A stretch of DNA of 42,877 nucleotides, from contig CAKZXA010000004.1 of assembly GCA_937922045.1 (NCBI GenBank), positions 1 through 42,877 on the forward strand. The letters run 5' to 3'. Both the position numbers and the translations under genes were made by a program. The notes under the pieces are model-generated. The model did not search any database, was not told where the DNA came from, and worked only from the letters and a program-made list of their open reading frames with translations. How positions within the stretch are numbered: position 1 is the first letter of the stretch; each line of letters begins with the position of its first letter. Of the stretch, positions 297 through 21,355 are shown piece after piece. The DNA is from an uncultured Acidimicrobiales bacterium (GTDB lineage Bacteria > Actinomycetota > Acidimicrobiia > Acidimicrobiales > SZUA-35).

Positions 297-641
297 TTAG
301 TCGTCGCTGAACAAGCCAGACAACACCCAGCTGATCACACTGATCAACAAGGCGCCGAGGAAGGCCGGGACCACACCGTCGATAGTTAGCGCATCGCTGA
401 GCCATGCGGTGAGGGCCAGCATGGCCGTGTTCACCACCAGTATGAACAGGCCGAGCGTGAGTACTACCGCTGGTAGTGAGAGCATCAGGACCAAGGGCCT
501 TAGAAAAGCATTGGCCAGACCAAAGATTACGGCCACCAAGAGGATCGAGGTGATCTCGTTGCTCAAGGTTATGCCATCGATCAAACGAGCCGCCGCCCAG
601 ATGCCAACCGCATTGACCCCCACCCGCAGAATCATGTTCAT
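297..641 (-). CDS. Phage holin 4 superfamily / YvlD-like small membrane protein
   Basis: The 114-residue product is almost entirely hydrophobic, with about four predicted membrane segments. It has the pattern of the YvlD / phage_holin_4_2 family, including the NAFLRPLVLMLSLPAVVLTLG stretch near residues 44-64. Members are inner-membrane proteins of unknown function that are common on actinobacterial chromosomes, so the family name does not imply a prophage, and no phage genes are nearby. The ATG at 639-641 is preceded by a GGGGGAAG-type ribosome site about five bases upstream. The gene stands alone: its stop faces the decayed TOPRIM gene and its start faces the pirin gene. The intervening 640-872 stretch shows no coding sequence and probably holds the two divergent promoters. 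Confidence 0.8.
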   Translation of the reverse strand: MNMILRVGVNAVGIWAAARLIDGITLSNEITSILLVAVIFGLANAFLRPLVLMLSLPAVVLTLGLFILVVNTAMLALTAWLSDALTIDGVVPAFLGALLISVISWVLSGLFSDD

Positions 642-1910: not shown

Positions 1911-2621
1911 TCAGAGCTCGAAGAGTTCGAACGGCACGGCGTAGGTCGTGCCGAGGCGAGGGCCTGCAGCAGCTGCGGCCTCCCTCAGCATTGCGTCCGG
2001 ATCGGGCGCATCGGCGCCAAGATTCTCGAGATACAGCTCATGGCATCGCAACGAGGCGATGCCAGCCTCCAGGTTGTCGCCGATATCAACCGCATGCGTC
2101 GATTGTGGTGAGCTGCAAAACGCGGCATAGCGGACACCGCCCCACGGCTCTCCCTCATCGGGGTAGAGCCACGGATTCCCTGCGTCGCGAGCGGCGTCCA
2201 ACAGGGCCGGACCGAGGGCGCGATGATCCGCATGGTTCCACGACCGGCCGCCCCAGGATTCACGAAAGTTGGTTGCGATCAACATCTCGGGACGATGGTG
2301 GCGAATCGCCACCGCTAGATCCCGACGCAACACCAGATCGTTGACGACGAGGCCATCGCGGTGGTCCAGGAACACAAGATCGGTGACGCCGACCGCAGCG
2401 CATGAGGCCTGTTGCTCGGCAGCTCGAATCGGACCCGTCTCGTCGGGCGGGATCGAGGCCATACCAGCTTCGCCACGGGTGACGAGTAGGTAGGAGATCC
2501 TCTTGCCTTGATTCACCCAGCGATGAACCGCCGACGCCGCCCCGTACTCCATGTCGTCGGGATGGGCCACCACGGCCATCGCCGTGAGCCAATCCTCGGG
2601 AAGCGGTGCAAGTTCGCTCAC
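1911..2621 (-). CDS. PIG-L family N-acetylglucosaminide deacetylase-like protein
   Basis: The 236-residue product has the PIG-L/LmbE zinc-hydrolase signature AHPDD at residues 19-23 and a downstream NHADHRALG motif that supplies the third zinc ligand. Known family members remove acetyl groups from N-acetylglucosaminyl compounds, including the MshB and Mca enzymes of mycothiol metabolism. The specific substrate cannot be assigned from sequence alone. The gene starts four bases after the stop of the upstream selenoprotein-like thioredoxin, so the two are almost certainly cotranscribed. The pairing hints at thiol or redox chemistry (for example mycothiol), but that is inference. Confidence 0.87.
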   Translation of the reverse strand: MSELAPLPEDWLTAMAVVAHPDDMEYGAASAVHRWVNQGKRISYLLVTRGEAGMASIPPDETGPIRAAEQQASCAAVGVTDLVFLDHRDGLVVNDLVLRRDLAVAIRHHRPEMLIATNFRESWGGRSWNHADHRALGPALLDAARDAGNPWLYPDEGEPWGGVRYAAFCSSPQSTHAVDIGDNLEAGIASLRCHELYLENLGADAPDPDAMLREAAAAAGPRLGTTYAVPFELFEL

Positions 2622-2625
2622 CGCG

Positions 2626-3147
2626 CTAGTTGGCGATCAGTTCTTCAATCCTGCTGGTTAGACCATCGACGCCCATAACGCCGACTCTGACATCGACCTC
2701 GCCACCATCACCATCGATGAAGGCGAAGGCAGGCTGCGAGACAACGCCGTAGCGTTCCCAGACGATGCCATCGATATCCAGGGCGTGCTCGAACCCGCCG
2801 ACGTTGTAGGTGTCGACGAATTGACTGATCGCGGCTTCCTCATCTCGAGAGGCCACGCCAACAAAGGTGACATCGTCACCGAATTCCTTCTGCACCGACG
2901 CGACCGCGTCGGCTTCACGTTGACAAGAAGGTCACCACGGCGCCCAGAAACAGAGCACGGTGTCCTGGCCTTCGAGGCTGTTGATGTCGATCTGGCCACC
3001 GGAGACCGAGGCGAGAATCGCGGTAGCGGTCTCTGCGGTGTCATCTGAGGAAGCTGCCACCGCCTCGGATTCGGCCGTATCGGAGCCGCAGGCGGCCAAC
3101 AAGGCGGCCGCAGCAGCGAAGAGAGCGAGTAGGCGCACACGAGTCAC
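2626..3147 (-). CDS. Putative selenocysteine-containing MPT53/TlpA-like thioredoxin lipoprotein
   Basis: Read through one in-frame TGA (2932-2934), this is a 173-residue protein. A signal peptide ends in the lipobox LAAC (Cys20), so the protein should be lipid-anchored outside the membrane. A thioredoxin domain follows with CFWAPW-[TGA]-PSCQREA, the motif WAPWCPSC with TGA (residue 72) exactly at the first catalytic Cys. The rest of the fold is intact: FVGVASRDEEAA, DIDGIVWERYGV and the cis-Pro loop SQPAF. The frame is open on both sides, and no other defect is visible. A SECIS-like hairpin starts directly after the TGA. The protein resembles mycobacterial MPT53/DsbE-like oxidoreductases. The start is taken as the GTG at 3145-3147; a second GTG nine bases later is possible. 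The alternative is a nonsense mutation in an ordinary Cys gene. Confidence 0.8.
2886..2934 (-). promoter_or_regulatory. Bacterial SECIS-like element following in-frame UGA
   Basis: On the minus-strand mRNA the UGA is followed by an outer stem CCUUCU / AGAAGG (2926-2931 with 2886-2891) and an inner 7-bp stem CCGACGC / GCGUCGG (2906-2912 with 2895-2901), extended by one G-U pair. The apical loop is GGUC (2902-2905). The loop begins 27 bases after the UGA and has G at its first two positions. From established knowledge, bacterial SECIS elements sit inside the coding region with the apical loop about 16-37 bases after UGA and at least one G in its first two bases, so the fit is very good. Pairing was done by eye; no folding energy was computed. 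Confidence 0.75.
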
Positions 3148-3218
3148 ATGGGAAAGGCTATCAGGCCAACGCCCCTTGGGCGGCCCCATGGCTAGCAAAG
3201 TCGGATAGAACTGAGGCC

Positions 3219-5401: not shown

Positions 5402-6241
5402 TTAGCCGATGAGGCGGGCGTTCTCCGTGAGCGCGGCCAGCACCTCGTCGGCCGAGCCCTGGGGCAGCTCGAACAAGGCTCGGCTTACACCCTGATCGGC
5501 TAGCTCTTTGAGCTTGTCGGCGTCGGCTGGGGCTCGGAACACGCCAAGCTCCAAGGACTCGGGGTTGCGGCCGATGGCTTCACACGCCTCGTGAACGACG
5601 TTGAGGCCGCCGAGGCCGCTTGGCCCGATCGGCATCCAGCCATCGCAGAACTCGGCGATGTGGGCTGCCGTTTTCGGCCCGGCTGCTCCACCCATGATGA
5701 TGGGAGGATGCGGCTGCTGGGTCGGCTTCGGCCATGACCACGACGGCGACAGGCTGACCTGATCTCCGTCGTAGCTGGCTTCGTCCTTGGTCCACAGTTC
5801 CTTCATAAGCAGGATGCATTCCCGCAGACGATCGCGGCGGGTCTTGAATTCGAGCCCATGATCGGCGTATTCCTCCACGTTCCAGCCGTACCCGACACCG
5901 AAGAGGAATCGTCCGCCGGAGATGGCATCGAGAGAGGCGACCTCTTTAGCCGTCCAGATCGGGTCTCGTTGGGCGACGAGGCAAATGCCGGTGCCAAGCT
6001 TGATCCGCTCGGTCACCGCTGCCGCCGCGGCCAAGGCTACGAACTGGTCGTGGGTGCGCCAGTAGAAATCGGGTAGATCGGGAGCGCCTTCGCGGCCACC
6101 CCATGGCGTTGTGCGATCGGACGGTATGTGTGAATGCTCAGGAAACCACAGAGATTCGTATCCCAGGTCTTCGACCGCCTTGGCCAGTTCGATCGGCTGG
6201 ATGGTTTGGTCGGTTGGGAAGATGTAAACGCCTAGTTCCAT
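5402..6241 (-). CDS. LLM class F420-dependent oxidoreductase
   Basis: The 279-residue product is a luciferase-like monooxygenase fold (TIM barrel) of the F420-dependent type. It starts MELGVYIFPTDQTIQPIELA, has ESLWFPEHSHIP at about residues 29-40, KLGTGICLVAQRDPIWTAKEVASLD with ISGGRFLFGVGYGWN, and a C-terminal GCxxWMPIGP-like block. This is close to the group often labelled 'TIGR03619 family F420-dependent LLM'. The enzyme reaction is unknown; family members reduce or oxidise small carbonyl or enoyl compounds with F420. It is one of two such genes in the window (the other is at 38927-39769), consistent with an F420-making actinobacterium. Confidence 0.88.
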   Translation of the reverse strand: MELGVYIFPTDQTIQPIELAKAVEDLGYESLWFPEHSHIPSDRTTPWGGREGAPDLPDFYWRTHDQFVALAAAAAVTERIKLGTGICLVAQRDPIWTAKEVASLDAISGGRFLFGVGYGWNVEEYADHGLEFKTRRDRLRECILLMKELWTKDEASYDGDQVSLSPSWSWPKPTQQPHPPIIMGGAAGPKTAAHIAEFCDGWMPIGPSGLGGLNVVHEACEAIGRNPESLELGVFRAPADADKLKELADQGVSRALFELPQGSADEVLAALTENARLIG

Positions 6242-16126: not shown

Positions 16127-19100
16127 CTATTGGTTGAGGCGACCCTGGGAGCTGACTCGAGGTTGGGGCGCGATTGCCACCGTGTCGGTGTCGAGGGTTG
16201 GCGTTGCGCCCACACAGCCGTCGGCCGCGGCGTCGCCAGAGCCGGTGAGCTCCCAACACCTTGGATCAACCACGTTGCCAGGCCCGGCACGAGAAATCGA
16301 GCGGCCGTCGCCTGCGCTGGCGAGCCGGCTCTCGACCGTGACATCCCAGATCCCAAGCTCAACCGGCGGACGAGACGCTATGTGGTCTCCACCGCTCCCG
16401 TCATCCCAGGCCACAAAGTCGACGAGCAGCCCATTCGGATCCCAGAGCCAGATGTCATCACCTTCGTTGTTGAAGGCCTCCCAGTTCGAGTTCGGGCCCG
16501 CCGGGAATCCGTAGTCGACACCGACCCAGTAGGCGGAGTACGACGTCGATGGCCGTAGCGAGCCATCCTGCAGCTGATAGCTCGTCCAATCCGGTCGGCG
16601 GATCGGCGCTGAGATCAAACTTCCCGGGGCAACCGGCGTTGGCTGAGCGACCGCCTGGTTGACGCGGCCTGTGTGCTGCGGCAGGTAAGGAGGCACCCCG
16701 CTGTGGAAGCCTAGATCGTCGCCAGAGCCAGGGTCGGCCGTGTCGCTCACGCTGAAGTTCTCGAGGTCGATGGTGGTAGCACTGGTATTTCGAATCTCCA
16801 TGTATTCGTCCATGAGGTAGGCATCGAACGGCCGCGCCAGGTCGAAGGGTTCCGACTCGGCGTAGAGCACCTCGTCGATCACGACGAGACCTGCATAAGG
16901 CGACAACCCGACCGGCCCAATCACGATGGCGTAGTTCGTGACATCGGTTGCCGCGTCGTCGTCGACCACCTCGACCGAGATGGGGAACGTGGTATCGAGG
17001 GTTGCGGCGGTCGGTGTTCCCGCGATGTTGATCGCGTTGGCTCCGAGGTTCCACGTTAGGCCTGCCGGCAATCCGGTGACGCTAGCGCTCACCACCGTGC
17101 CATCGGGATCGGCATGGGTGATCGCTTGGGTGTAGGCCACGTTGACGAAAGCACTCTGGTTTGTGGTCGGGGCGATCACCGGTGGGTCGTTGATGTCGGC
17201 AACCGTGATGGTGCCACTGGCAGTCGATGCTCCGCCAGCGCCATCCGACACGGTGTAGACGAACGAGTCGGTCCCGTTGGTGTCCGGATCAGGGGTATAG
17301 GTAATCGTGTTGTCACCGTTCACCGTGGCTGAACCAGAGGTGGGAGCTGTCGTAACAGCCACCGTCAACGGGTCACCGTCGACATCGTCGTCATTCGCTA
17401 GCACGTCCAGCACCACCGCGATGTCTTCGTCGGTGGTCGCCGCATCGTCGGCCGCAACCGGCGCATCGTTGACAGCAGCAACGTTGACGGTCACGGTTGC
17501 TGTAGCCACGTTCCCGGCCGGGTCGCTCATCGAATAGCTGAAGGAGTCAGAACCATTCGTGTCGAGATGAGGCGTGTAGGTAGCAGACTTCCCATCGGCC
17601 GCAATCACGACCGAACCGTTCGCACCCTGCCCGACGGTGTCGACGGTAAGAGCCAAAGCCTCGGGATCATCGTCGTTGTCGAGGACCAGGACGACAACCG
17701 CAACGTCCTCATCGGTCGAGGCGGTGTCATCCGTCGCAACCGGCGGATCATCCACCGGTCCAACAACCACGGTGACCGTGGCCGACGCCGCTCCACCTGC
17801 ACCATCCGACACGGTGTAGACGAACGAGTCGGTCCCGTTGGTGTCCGGATTGGGGGTGTAGGTGATCGTCTGGTCCGGATTGACGACGGTGGCGCCAGAC
17901 GAAGCCGGACCCACGGTCACCGACAGGGCATCCCCGTCCACGTCGGAGTCGTTCACAAGCACCGCCACATCCACGGCGTTGTCTTCGGGCGTTGAGGCCG
18001 AATCGGGCAAGGCGATGGGAGCGTCGTTTCGAGCAGCGATCGATACCGCCACGGTGGCTGAAGCCGCGCCGCCATTTCCGTCTGACACCGTGTAGCTAAA
18101 CGTGTCGTTGCCATTGGCGTTCAGGTTCGGTGTATAGGTAATCGTGCCATCACCGTTGGGAACGGCCGAGCCAAGACTCGGCCCCGATTCGATCGACACG
18201 TTCAGTTGATCGCCATCCGGGTCGGTGTCGTTCTCGGTGACTGCGATCACGATGGCCACATCTTCGTCGGTGACAACCGTGTCCGGCGCGGCGAGCGGCG
18301 GATCGTTGACGGGATGAACAACCACGGTCGCCGTGGCCGAGGCGAAGCCGCCGTCACCGTCGGCGATCGTGTAGGTAAAGGAGTCGGTTCCGTTCACATC
18401 GGGGTTTGGGGTGTAGGTGATGGTGTCGGCCGCGGTGATGGCCACCACACCGCCCGAACCTTGCACCACCGATGTCACCGTGAGAATCGAACCCTCTGGG
18501 TCTGAATCGTTTGCAACAACAAGAACGTCTACGGCCGAATCTTCGTCGGTTCCAGCCGTATCGGCCACCGCCACCGGCGCATCATTTACCGCTACCACCG
18601 ACACGGTTATGGTCCCGGTAACCGAGTTACCAGCCGGGTCGGTGGCCACATACGGGATGCTGTCGGTGCCCGACACATTCGGCAGGGGCGCGTAGTTTAC
18701 GGTGCCATCGGCCATCGTCGTGACGGCGCCGAGAAGGCCAGGGCCTGCTGACACCAGCGAGAGCGCCTGCCCTTCGGGGTCGGAATCGTTGGCCAGTGGC
18801 GACACGACGACCGGCGTGTCTTCATCGGTCGTCGCCGTATCCGGTACCGCCGTTGGCGTCTCGTCGAGGTCGTTCACGTTCACGACCAACACGCCGAGAG
18901 ATGATGCCATCCCATCGGTCACCCGCACGGTCAAGAGGTAGCTACGAACCGACTCAAAGTCGAGAGGCTGGACCGTTGAAACCACCCCCGTGGCAGGGTC
19001 GACAACAAACGGGGCGCTCAGGGCTAGCGGTGACCGTGATCGAACGAAGGCCCCTCCAGGAGCTATGAGCAGGGCAGTTGGACGCTGATCGACCAGAACG

Positions 19101-21355
19101 AAGCGCATTTCATCACCGTCTACGTCAGCGCCGATCATGGTGGCTATCTCGGTGCTGGCGACGCGGTTTTCGTCGACCTCAACCAGCAGGTCGGCAAGGA
19201 CTGGGGCATCGTTGACCGGCGTGATCGTCACCTCGATCATCGCCGACGTACGCTGACCAACCGAGTCCTCGACGACGTAGGTGAGCTGATCGACACCGAC
19301 CTGATTGGCCATCGGCGTATAGATCACCGTTCCGTCCGCACCGATCGAAGCAACACCACGTGTGCCACCCTCGACCGAGATCAGTGTGAGGCCTTGAGCT
19401 TCCGGATCGCGATCGTTGCTGAGGGCAGCGATCGTGATCGGCGTATCTTCGGGTGTCGTCACCACATCATCGGCGGCAACGGGTGGAAGGTTTTGAGGGA
19501 CCGTTGTCGTCGTTGTGGCCGGACCGCTCGTTGTGGTCGGAGCGCTGGTCGTGGTCGTCGATTGGCTTGTGGTCGTCGATGAAACCGTCGTTGTGGGCCC
19601 CGTCGTCGATGAAACCGTCGTCGATGAAACCGGCGTTGATAACGCCGTCGTTTGGCTGGCCACAAGGGTGCTGGTTGTCGTTTGTCCGCTCGTTGGTGTC
19701 GTCGATGCCGACGAAACGTCAACCGTGACCGAAGCAACATCGGTTCGTCCTGAACCGTCGTCGATTTCATAGGAGGCAACGTAACGTCCAGCCGCTGGCG
19801 GGGCCACGAACTGGATCTCCCCGTCGACGAGACTGAATGCTGTGCTCACGCCACCGGTCAGGTTGACGATGGTCAGAATGTCTCCGTCGACGTCGCGATC
19901 ATTTTTGAGTACATCGAGGACTAGCGTTTGGCCTGCGGTCGTCGTGTAGTAGTCGTCTGATGCGAGCGGGGCGTCGGGAGTCGGTTGAACGGTCACGGGA
20001 ACGGTGCTCAAAATGCATTGACCGGTGGCATCGCAAGTGCGGACCACCATCTCGTCGGTGCCGTTGAAGTCTGGTTCGGGCCAGTAGTCAATCCGCCACC
20101 CCTCTTCGGTGAGGCGAAGATCCCACGTTCCATGTTCCGGTCCGTCAACGACGGACACTTCCAGGGTGTCAGCCGCCCCAACGGCTACGTCGACACCACC
20201 TTCGGCATCCTCGGCCACCACGACGGCCCCATCCTCGACGACAAGTTCTGTCGCAGTGAAGGCAAGCTGTTTGGGTTCGGGAACCTGATTGAGCCCGAGC
20301 ACAGCGGCGATGGCAACGGCAGCGGCCGCCGAGGCTGCGCCGACGACGGGTGCAGCGATCGGCGCTGGGGACGCTGCGAGTGTTCCGGTAAACGAAGAGA
20401 TCGGGCCGGCGACGAGTCTCAGCTGACCGAGGCTGATACGAAGAAAGGCCCGCACCACGGCGGGATCGAACTGGGTTCCGGCGCAATCGGCTACTTCCTG
20501 GCGGGCGGCTTGCGCCGACATTGCCTTCTTGTAGCTACGCACGCTTGTCATCACGTCGTAGGCATCGGCCACCGCAGCGATGCGGCCAGCGAGGGTTATA
20601 TCCTCGCCAGCCAGATTGCTGGGGTATCCAGTGCCATCCCACCGGCAGTGATGTTCGTCGACGGCGCCAAGCCAGTCCCCGAGCCATGGGCGCAAGGAGT
20701 CAACGTAGCCTCGGCCTTGGGCCGGGTGGGTTTGGAGGATCTTCCATTCTTGCTCGTCGGGCCGACCCGCCTTGTTGAGAATCTCGGCCGGAACATCGAG
20801 CTTGCCCATGTCGTGGAGGAGCGTTCCCCATCGCAGCATCGCTCGGTCGGTAGTGGAAAGATTCAGTTCTTCAGCGATCAGGTCGGCGTAGGCCTGGACC
20901 CGTTCGGCGTGGCCCCTGGTTAGTCGATCATGGTCACCAAGAGCGGCGAGAAGGTCGACGAGGGTCGAACTATTCTGCACAGCGTCGGTCTCAATACCCA
21001 TTTGATCGGCCTGGCGAAGTCGCGACAGTGCCCGCTTGCTGCTCGTGGCCCGCAGTGCCGACTTGAACCGGCTGGGCGCCTCGTCGGGAAAGATCATCGA
21101 CAGGCGAAACAGGGCGGCGACCGGCAGCAGCTTTGCCGAAAGACGACTAGCAACCTGGATAAAGAGCGTGCAGAGGGAGAAGACCCCGACCCACCACACG
21201 ATCGGGTGGAGACCTACCTTCGACGGCGGGAGCAGCCGGCCGATAGCGAAGGCCAAAGCAAAGGCGCTGACGATCGGCACGAGGAGGATGACGAATCGCA
21301 AGAGACCAGCCACGATCGGCCGCTCGGTCCACGATTGTGTCGTCGCCTCTTGCAC
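16127..21355 (-). CDS. HD-GYP / cadherin-like repeat / lamin-tail giant membrane protein
   Basis: The 1742-residue product fuses a cytoplasmic HD-GYP domain to a long outside region. Two membrane helices (about 17-40 and 50-70) precede the HD-GYP domain (about 131-310), which keeps HDMGK (181-185), THPAQG, HHCRWDGTGYP (235-245) and AGRIAAVADAYDVM; this family hydrolyses c-di-GMP. A third helix (about 335-356) puts the rest outside. About eight Big_9/cadherin-like repeats follow (each NDAPVAxxDxxxTDEDxA...NDxDxDGDxL), one further cadherin-like unit, and a Ser/Thr-rich linker after the first repeat. A putative-Ig unit (NDPPVIAPTTNQSAF) is next, and the C-terminal region (GLVVIDEVLY...EYMEIRNTSATTIDLENF) is lamin-tail-like. 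No sortase motif is seen. The start is GTG 21353-21355. The fusion is unusual; a c-di-GMP-linked adhesion role is inference. Confidence 0.85.
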   Translation of the reverse strand: MQEATTQSWTERPIVAGLLRFVILLVPIVSAFALAFAIGRLLPPSKVGLHPIVWWVGVFSLCTLFIQVASRLSAKLLPVAALFRLSMIFPDEAPSRFKSALRATSSKRALSRLRQADQMGIETDAVQNSSTLVDLLAALGDHDRLTRGHAERVQAYADLIAEELNLSTTDRAMLRWGTLLHDMGKLDVPAEILNKAGRPDEQEWKILQTHPAQGRGYVDSLRPWLGDWLGAVDEHHCRWDGTGYPSNLAGEDITLAGRIAAVADAYDVMTSVRSYKKAMSAQAARQEVADCAGTQFDPAVVRAFLRISLGQLRLVAGPISSFTGTLAASPAPIAAPVVGAASAAAAVAIAAVLGLNQVPEPKQLAFTATELVVEDGAVVVAEDAEGGVDVAVGAADTLEVSVVDGPEHGTWDLRLTEEGWRIDYWPEPDFNGTDEMVVRTCDATGQCILSTVPVTVQPTPDAPLASDDYYTTTAGQTLVLDVLKNDRDVDGDILTIVNLTGGVSTAFSLVDGEIQFVAPPAAGRYVASYEIDDGSGRTDVASVTVDVSSASTTPTSGQTTTSTLVASQTTALSTPVSSTTVSSTTGPTTTVSSTTTSQSTTTTSAPTTTSGPATTTTTVPQNLPPVAADDVVTTPEDTPITIAALSNDRDPEAQGLTLISVEGGTRGVASIGADGTVIYTPMANQVGVDQLTYVVEDSVGQRTSAMIEVTITPVNDAPVLADLLVEVDENRVASTEIATMIGADVDGDEMRFVLVDQRPTALLIAPGGAFVRSRSPLALSAPFVVDPATGVVSTVQPLDFESVRSYLLTVRVTDGMASSLGVLVVNVNDLDETPTAVPDTATTDEDTPVVVSPLANDSDPEGQALSLVSAGPGLLGAVTTMADGTVNYAPLPNVSGTDSIPYVATDPAGNSVTGTITVSVVAVNDAPVAVADTAGTDEDSAVDVLVVANDSDPEGSILTVTSVVQGSGGVVAITAADTITYTPNPDVNGTDSFTYTIADGDGGFASATATVVVHPVNDPPLAAPDTVVTDEDVAIVIAVTENDTDPDGDQLNVSIESGPSLGSAVPNGDGTITYTPNLNANGNDTFSYTVSDGNGGAASATVAVSIAARNDAPIALPDSASTPEDNAVDVAVLVNDSDVDGDALSVTVGPASSGATVVNPDQTITYTPNPDTNGTDSFVYTVSDGAGGAASATVTVVVGPVDDPPVATDDTASTDEDVAVVVLVLDNDDDPEALALTVDTVGQGANGSVVIAADGKSATYTPHLDTNGSDSFSYSMSDPAGNVATATVTVNVAAVNDAPVAADDAATTDEDIAVVLDVLANDDDVDGDPLTVAVTTAPTSGSATVNGDNTITYTPDPDTNGTDSFVYTVSDGAGGASTASGTITVADINDPPVIAPTTNQSAFVNVAYTQAITHADPDGTVVSASVTGLPAGLTWNLGANAINIAGTPTAATLDTTFPISVEVVDDDAATDVTNYAIVIGPVGLSPYAGLVVIDEVLYAESEPFDLARPFDAYLMDEYMEIRNTSATTIDLENFSVSDTADPGSGDDLGFHSGVPPYLPQHTGRVNQAVAQPTPVAPGSLISAPIRRPDWTSYQLQDGSLRPSTSYSAYWVGVDYGFPAGPNSNWEAFNNEGDDIWLWDPNGLLVDFVAWDDGSGGDHIASRPPVELGIWDVTVESRLASAGDGRSISRAGPGNVVDPRCWELTGSGDAAADGCVGATPTLDTDTVAIAPQPRVSSQGRLNQ
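17241..17849 (-). repeat. Near-identical DNA in two cadherin-like repeats
   Basis: A 48-base block (17241-17288) is repeated identically at 17802-17849, two protein repeats apart (561 bases). It encodes the TDSFVYTVSDG part of the repeats. Identity at the DNA level, not only the protein level, points to recent duplication or gene conversion. Other units share the protein pattern but differ more in DNA. Confidence 0.85.
19493..19730 (-). repeat. Thr/Ser-rich linker coding region with short DNA repeats
   Basis: This part of the giant gene encodes a chain of Thr, Ser and Pro (such as SSTTVSSTTGPTTTVSSTTT). On the plus strand the 16-base unit GTCGTCGATGAAACCG recurs three times between about 19573 and 19635. 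A low-complexity linker such as this could act as a flexible, possibly glycosylated spacer. Confidence 0.8.

Follow-up and report, generated by a model that had tools for sequence, protein, structure and literature searches.

The stretch of DNA analysed here (the window; 42,877 nucleotides from an uncultured Acidimicrobiales bacterium) contains a gene that appears to be broken by a stop codon. Judging from sequence comparisons, this gene is very probably intact, its in-frame TGA being read as selenocysteine (Sec) in the active site of a probably exported thioredoxin-like protein, a member of a large selenoprotein family of little-known actinobacteria. The features involved are the following:

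2626..3147, minus strand: predicted selenoprotein coding sequence, 173 residues with one Sec (residue 72); Pfam and PDB matches span the TGA
3088..3147, minus strand: signal sequence with a lipobox-like LAAC (Cys codon 3090..3088), recognised by eye in the translation
2932..2934, minus strand: UGA, predicted Sec at the first (attacking) position of the CxxC motif, from relatives and translation
2923..2925, minus strand: codon of the resolving Cys of U-P-S-C, from the translation; a second TGA stands at this codon in the UxxU subfamily
2894..2913, minus strand: SECIS-like hairpin, stem 2906-2913 with 2894-2901, loop GGUC at 2902-2905, 27-30 nt past the UGA

The first-pass annotation had placed a TGA exactly at the first Cys of a WAPWCPSC motif, and this was borne out at 2934..2932; the strand was corrected, the gene sitting on the minus strand (3147..2626). 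The frame reads VTRVRLLALFAAAAALLAACGSD...VLCFWAPW-TGA-PSCQRE...EELIAN, with a GTG start and a TAG stop, the start being a guess: GTG at 3147 was chosen, and TTG at 3198 is also open. Translation with table 11 breaks the frame into ORFs of 88 aa (3198..2932) and 89 aa (2895..2626), so that the gene would be split by a gene caller, just as had been anticipated. The read-through protein scores above the curated cut-offs of the Pfam models AhpC-TSA (55 bits, cut-off 26), Redoxin and Thioredoxin. These matches cross the TGA, and both halves are kept in TGA-bearing relatives, in agreement with the earlier remark that the frame is open and conserved on either side. Downstream of the TGA, dN/dS was below 1 in 11 of 11 chosen pairs of relatives (range 0.04-0.68), and it equalled 0.31 and 0.27 between the window gene and its two best matches in other genomes. 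The N terminus is predicted to be that of an exported lipoprotein; a crude lipobox pattern was found in 130 of the 172 Sec members of the family and in 6 of the 16 Cys members.

Homologues, which had been pointed to as a check, do carry TGA at the same codon. A search for relatives in 39 genomes of the same taxonomic family, including the window's own, gave a match at E 1e-6 in 38 of them; every in-frame stop within the matches listed was TGA, with one or two per match, and in the TGA-bearing loci that were fetched the TGA stood at the active site (WFWAPWU, WAPHU, WAPGU and similar). Scanning of named genomes for WFWAPW followed by TGA produced at least 117 stretches. Among the 117 listed, 113 are relatives of the read-through protein (blastp E ≤ 1.7e-15) and four (L133, L151, L154, L193) are chance occurrences (E ≥ 0.037). 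Ninety-seven of the 113 listed relatives are labelled Acidimicrobi- or Microthrix (Acidimicrobiia), and the other 16 include Egibacteraceae, Euzebyaceae, Nitriliruptorales, unplaced actinobacteria and one MAG labelled Acidobacteria. The member from that MAG (L136) groups with an Acidimicrobiales one (support 89), reflecting either transfer or a binning error. After removal of duplicates the family set comprised 188 members, namely 154 UxxC, 18 UxxU and 16 CxxC. Homologues with Cys at the Sec position exist (L228-L233, L074; also Mtb DsbF), and a search for related loci with Cys-based patterns found nothing.

A bacterial SECIS element is a hairpin located shortly past the UGA with a G in its apical loop. 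The window gene has such a hairpin soon after its UGA, with G in the apical loop; the 8-pair stem begins 19 nt after the UGA. Taken alone it is unremarkable (z -1.89, with 9 of 200 shuffles folding equally well), and Rfam returned only two weak, irrelevant matches for the region. Hairpin statistics were collected from 154 distinct sites (136 UxxC, 18 UxxU), with the window site (CFWAPWU) excluded, and the loop was GGTC in 133 of them. In 90% of sites the ninth codon past the UGA ends in G, compared with 27% expected by codon use (at most 37% in 500 draws); of the two loop positions that fall on third codon bases, position 1 has G in 90% of sites and position 4 has C in 93.5%, compared with 27% and 53%. 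Stem pairing reached 76.1% versus 71.0% when codons for the same amino acid were shuffled (maximum 72.3%, 500 draws), and changes on both sides of a pair numbered 119 versus 73.5 in the same kind of shuffle (maximum 87, 500 draws). When codons were drawn from a pool, the observed pairing of 76.1% beat all 500 draws (at most 65.6%); both-side changes reached 124 in such draws, so the observed 119 is not above this null.

In a gap-free alignment of 60 diverse sites, 75.6% of cells are paired, and covariation scored 0.306 versus 0.160 after shuffling, with 0 of 500 shuffles as high and slid partners giving 0.07-0.13. Two of the five measures in this 60-site test lay within the shuffles: six pairs had both-side changes, a number reached in 266 of 500 shuffles, and there were 18 further pair types, a number reached in 44 of 500. 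The fourth stem pair is mostly a mismatch, unpaired in 44 of the 60 sites. The UxxU group carries A at position 25 in 15 of 18 sites and T at position 32 in 15 of 18, while UxxC sites have mostly G and C there. Stem changes cut across amino acids, with T-V-V (UxxU) for A-V-A and S-V-E in other groups, all with the same loop, and in the class set 12 of 14 Sec forms had the GGTC loop, as did two of the six close Cys forms L228-L233. These comparisons argue that the putative SECIS hairpin is maintained by synonymous constraint together with covariation. A recent nonsense mutation or sequencing error in an ordinary Cys thioredoxin gene, although TGC or TGT becomes TGA by a single change and the window comes from a draft assembly of 128 contigs, was rejected as practically negligible: the same TGA codon is found in the relatives at 113 listed named loci and in many family genomes, purifying selection persists after the TGA in all 11 pairs of relatives, in line with the doubt already cast on this alternative by the first reading, and the hairpin is kept across relatives.

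The search for selA, selB, tRNA-Sec and selD proposed by the first-pass annotation recovered all four in the window's own genome (G000; a draft, 96.9% complete). The tRNA-Sec scores 67.1 bits, over the cut-off, with anticodon TCA (ARAGORN), at the extreme edge of contig C89; selB (253.5 bits) and selA (400.3 bits) are both over the cut-off and adjacent on C103; selD (359.9 bits; contig C14, L019) itself has one in-frame TGA (GAG-U-AAK). A hairpin tipped with GGUUC lies downstream of the TGA in selD.

Across the 39 family genomes selB was over the cut-off in 36, in three of these only with neighbouring pieces. The three genomes without selB belong to a single genus, g8 (G017-G019), and their matches have no TGA, so that the co-occurrence of selB and TGA within the family depends on this one genus. 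With 81 candidates scored per genome, tRNA-Sec was detected in 30 of the 39 and was absent from G024, G031, G001, G015, G016, G017, G018, G020 and G023. Several of the tRNA-Sec-negative genomes carry the Sec form, and most of them are fragmented MAGs; G016 has only 80 contigs and is 95% complete, yet tRNA-Sec was not found among its 81 candidates. In G019 tRNA-Sec was weakly found and selB is absent, and G023 has selB and no family match.

A class sample of 23 genomes was hand-picked from a search of the class. There selB was over the cut-off in 17 of 18 genomes with the TGA form versus 2 of 5 with Cys as the best form (Fisher p 0.02, uncorrected for kinship); for 15 of these 18 Sec-form genomes the TGA was read directly at the active site, the remaining three (G109, G129, G153) having a TGA somewhere inside the match. 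One of the 18, G081, has both Sec and Cys forms. The exceptions are G226, with a Sec form and no selB match (79% complete), and G121 and G223, with selB over the cut-off and Cys as the listed form. The locus L236, which reads WSWAPWU, lay outside the motif-pattern set and the covariance-model scoring. Genomes with a Sec form nearly always have selB.

The open frame past the UGA in 113 listed named relatives could also arise from read-through by a near-cognate tRNA or from reassignment of the codon to Trp, Cys or Gly, with no selenium involved. However, TGA terminates 13 of the 31 ORFs of at least 200 aa in the window (mechanical listing, overlaps <20%), so there is no general reassignment of TGA; in addition, the full Sec machinery is present in G000, the three selB-less family genomes are also without the TGA form, and a SECIS-like hairpin lies downstream of the UGA. 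On these grounds reassignment was rejected, and we consider it very improbable.

The reading of the TGA as Sec was also examined with a covariance model of 66 positions built from 60 sites, none of them from G000. Over that genome (4.9 Mb) the window site ranked first (72.2 bits, E 8.9e-22), and ranks 2-4 were read-through relatives on contigs C32 (53.7 bits, active site U-P-T-C), C12 (51.9 bits, U-P-T-C) and C50 (30.4 bits, U-G-I-C); at rank 5 (20.3 bits) no relative was seen. The model contains coding letters and is therefore a test of the site as a whole and not just of its hairpin; Cys forms score with it as well (32-59 bits). Since the top four matches are read-through members, G000 encodes four or more thioredoxin-like selenoproteins of this family, their N termini lipoprotein-like by eye, in addition to selD. 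The extra copies are L088 (C12), L248 (C32) and L252 (C50), all thioredoxin-like with lipoprotein-like N termini. In the copies on C12 and C32 the distance between the UGA and a likely SECIS hairpin, TTGAGC-AGTTT-GCTCAA, is about 8 nt longer than the corresponding distance in the window gene.

Sec and Cys forms were placed on a tree obtained by a quick search (84 of the 85 rows supplied were kept, over 129 columns), which is of low resolution, with 10 of 81 branches starred. On this 84-row tree Sec is the majority state of the ingroup and CxxC forms are scattered; the fewest changes at the first position number six, one of them being the split from the Cys outgroup, and the starred branches force just two changes of the CxxC label. 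The tree suggests that Sec was present early in the ingroup and that changes to Cys came later, and the scattering of CxxC among Sec forms suggests that the change from Sec to Cys occurred repeatedly. The close Cys forms number seven (L228-L233, L074): three are found in genomes without selB over the cut-off (G237, G148, G078), and the other four sit in the selB genomes G121, G223, G081 and G006. The UxxU forms make up one group (support 92). Their genes have two UGAs nine bases apart and a single GGUC hairpin, the loop of which starts 27 and 18 nt away, and therefore SelB would serve two distances. UxxU loci include L039, L042, L043, L044, L046, L047, L058-L060, L064, L066-L068 and others.

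The structure predicted for the read-through protein is confident from residue 51 (pLDDT block means 94-98), and U72 begins the helix 73-89. The likeness to MPT53 claimed at first sight held both by sequence and by fold, the best solved structures being those of Mtb DsbF and MPT53: Foldseek ranked DsbF first (rmsd 1.1 Å, 44% identity, TM 0.91 by target length) and MPT53/DsbE second (rmsd 2.3 Å, 37% identity), with ResA next, and phmmer gave E values of 2.4e-28 for DsbF and 1.9e-24 for MPT53.

From the machinery and the hairpin, a mechanism may be proposed in which SelB and Sec-tRNA(UCA) bind the GGUC-loop hairpin and insert Sec at the UGA. The attacking Cys of a DsbF/MPT53 (TlpA-like) oxidoreductase would thus be replaced by Sec in a protein that would be exported and probably lipid-anchored; outside the membrane the U72-C75 pair would take part in disulfide exchange, with either secreted proteins or small thiols, and Sec would make the oxidoreductase react and recycle faster. 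The sequence itself shows the conserved TGA, the hairpin, the machinery and the predicted fold; the insertion of Sec, the export and the direction of the reaction are inferred.

Concerning the direction, Mtb DsbE and DsbF are described in the available excerpts of PMC3853704 as oxidants: they fold hirudin but leave insulin unreduced, and DsbD or Rv2877c is proposed as their partner. By analogy with these two enzymes, we lean towards an oxidant role for the window protein. A role as an envelope reductant or peroxidase, and not a disulfide-forming oxidant, is possible and in our view rather less probable. The Pfam models matched best are AhpC-TSA and Redoxin; ResA follows DsbF and MPT53 in the fold search, with CcmG, called a reducing oxidoreductase, lower down. 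ResA is a reductant, and Sec enzymes are often reductive. Nevertheless, the closest structures are those of Mtb DsbF and DsbE, which are reported oxidants, and no electron supplier of the DsbD/CcdA type was found in G000. Searches of this genome for VKOR (PF07884; controls matched in 3 of 14) and DsbD_TM (PF02683; controls matched in 10 of 14) gave no match. G000 has several predicted exported thioredoxins, yet neither of these partner families is matched in it. It is conceivable, though we think it unlikely, that Acidimicrobiia and related actinobacteria possess an envelope disulfide system of several exported selenoproteins per genome, UxxU forms included, which would take the place of partners such as VKOR/DsbB or DsbD and would be recycled directly by small thiols or oxidants from outside.

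Other features of the window are:

1911..2621, minus strand: PIG-L deacetylase family gene (PF02585), by Pfam, 4 nt past the selenoprotein stop
16127..21355, minus strand: longest ORF of the window, 5229 bases
297..641, minus strand: small protein with a match to PF04020 (mycobacterial 4 TMS phage holin family)

The PIG-L deacetylase gene is possibly co-transcribed with the selenoprotein gene. Because no relative of it was found beside the 113 listed named sites (ORFs of at least 90 aa within 4 kb, E 1e-10), it was not counted in the system. Among the window neighbours only a luciferase-like gene (5402..6241) was matched at the 113 listed loci, at one locus (L221); the ORF overlapping the selenoprotein gene itself had a match in L117. 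The gene neighbourhood of the family is not conserved. Inspection by eye of the 25 largest clusters of neighbour ORFs at the 113 loci, in a crude clustering with many spurious antisense ORFs, showed no redox partner.

With the TGA read as Sec, two supposed hypothetical fragments become one whole redox enzyme, and a group of uncultured actinobacteria seemingly invests its selenium in exported thioredoxins that form a multi-copy family. With UxxC, UxxU and CxxC in one tree, the family offers a natural experiment on Sec versus Cys, and it also bears on how a single SECIS can act on a pair of UGAs separated by nine bases. Less expected were the four-copy expansion, the UxxU subfamily, the scattered Cys forms and, in G000, no detectable partner of the VKOR/DsbD type.

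The suggestion that the selenoprotein might be undescribed stands in part. Thioredoxin-like selenoproteins with UxxC, and UxxU in Prx-like families, are already listed in the excerpts available of PMC13188914, PMC2398784 and PMC1088965, and because UxxC selenoproteins of the Trx-like/TlpA-like kind are listed, the window protein is less new as a kind. The part that stood concerns the actinobacterial group, which was not found in the literature searched: among the matches listed from open-licence literature, none dealt by title with an Acidimicrobiia or actinobacterial family, and the expansion in Acidimicrobiia was not found described there. In the accessible portions of PMC5029168, Actinobacteria are mentioned only for orphan SelD and transfer events.

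Among the published groups, Trx-like 1 (COG0526, UxxC) from the Global Ocean Sampling has Sec at the first CxxC position of a thioredoxin fold, as here (PMC2398784, in excerpt). The same applies to the thiol-disulfide isomerase-like (cd02966, UxxC) and Prx-like thiol:disulfide oxidoreductase (PF00578, UxxC/UxxU) groups of a 2026 review (PMC13188914, likewise in excerpt). Compared by description only, none of the groups in these excerpts is named as actinobacterial or DsbF-type. As to annotation models, the window protein scores far from the NCBIfam cut-offs: 61.9 bits of 170 for ResA, 58.2 of 210 for StoA, 31.3 of 123.15 for DsbE and 34.9 of 300 for WAxxUGC_long. Since no NCBIfam model gives the window protein a score near the cut-off, annotation probably splits or truncates genes of the family. 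WAxxUGC_long (NF041054) is by name ResA-like with a WAxxU motif, and its UGC differs from the UxxC of the window protein. The hairpin resembles the SECIS of E. coli fdhF, which also has a GGUC loop on a short stem after the UGA, whereas the GGUC stands 19-22 nt past the UGA in fdhF and 27-30 nt in the window gene; a 39-base fdhF query had matches in 5368 of 5426 E. coli genomes, and all three of the rows listed were fdhF.

The closest known systems are Mtb DsbF (3IOS) and MPT53/DsbE (1LU4), which have the fold in common with the window protein and a near-identical active-site region (FWAPWCPTC in DsbF, FWTPWCPFC in MPT53). Unlike them, the window protein is encoded in a genome in which neither DsbD_TM nor VKOR was matched, is a predicted lipoprotein, has a SECIS-like hairpin within its gene and carries Sec for the first Cys. 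In place of the CxxC that marks the DsbF/MPT53 group it has UxxC, selenium being exchanged for sulfur with the position kept, and it is predicted to work like a member of this group rather than to be a standard member of it.
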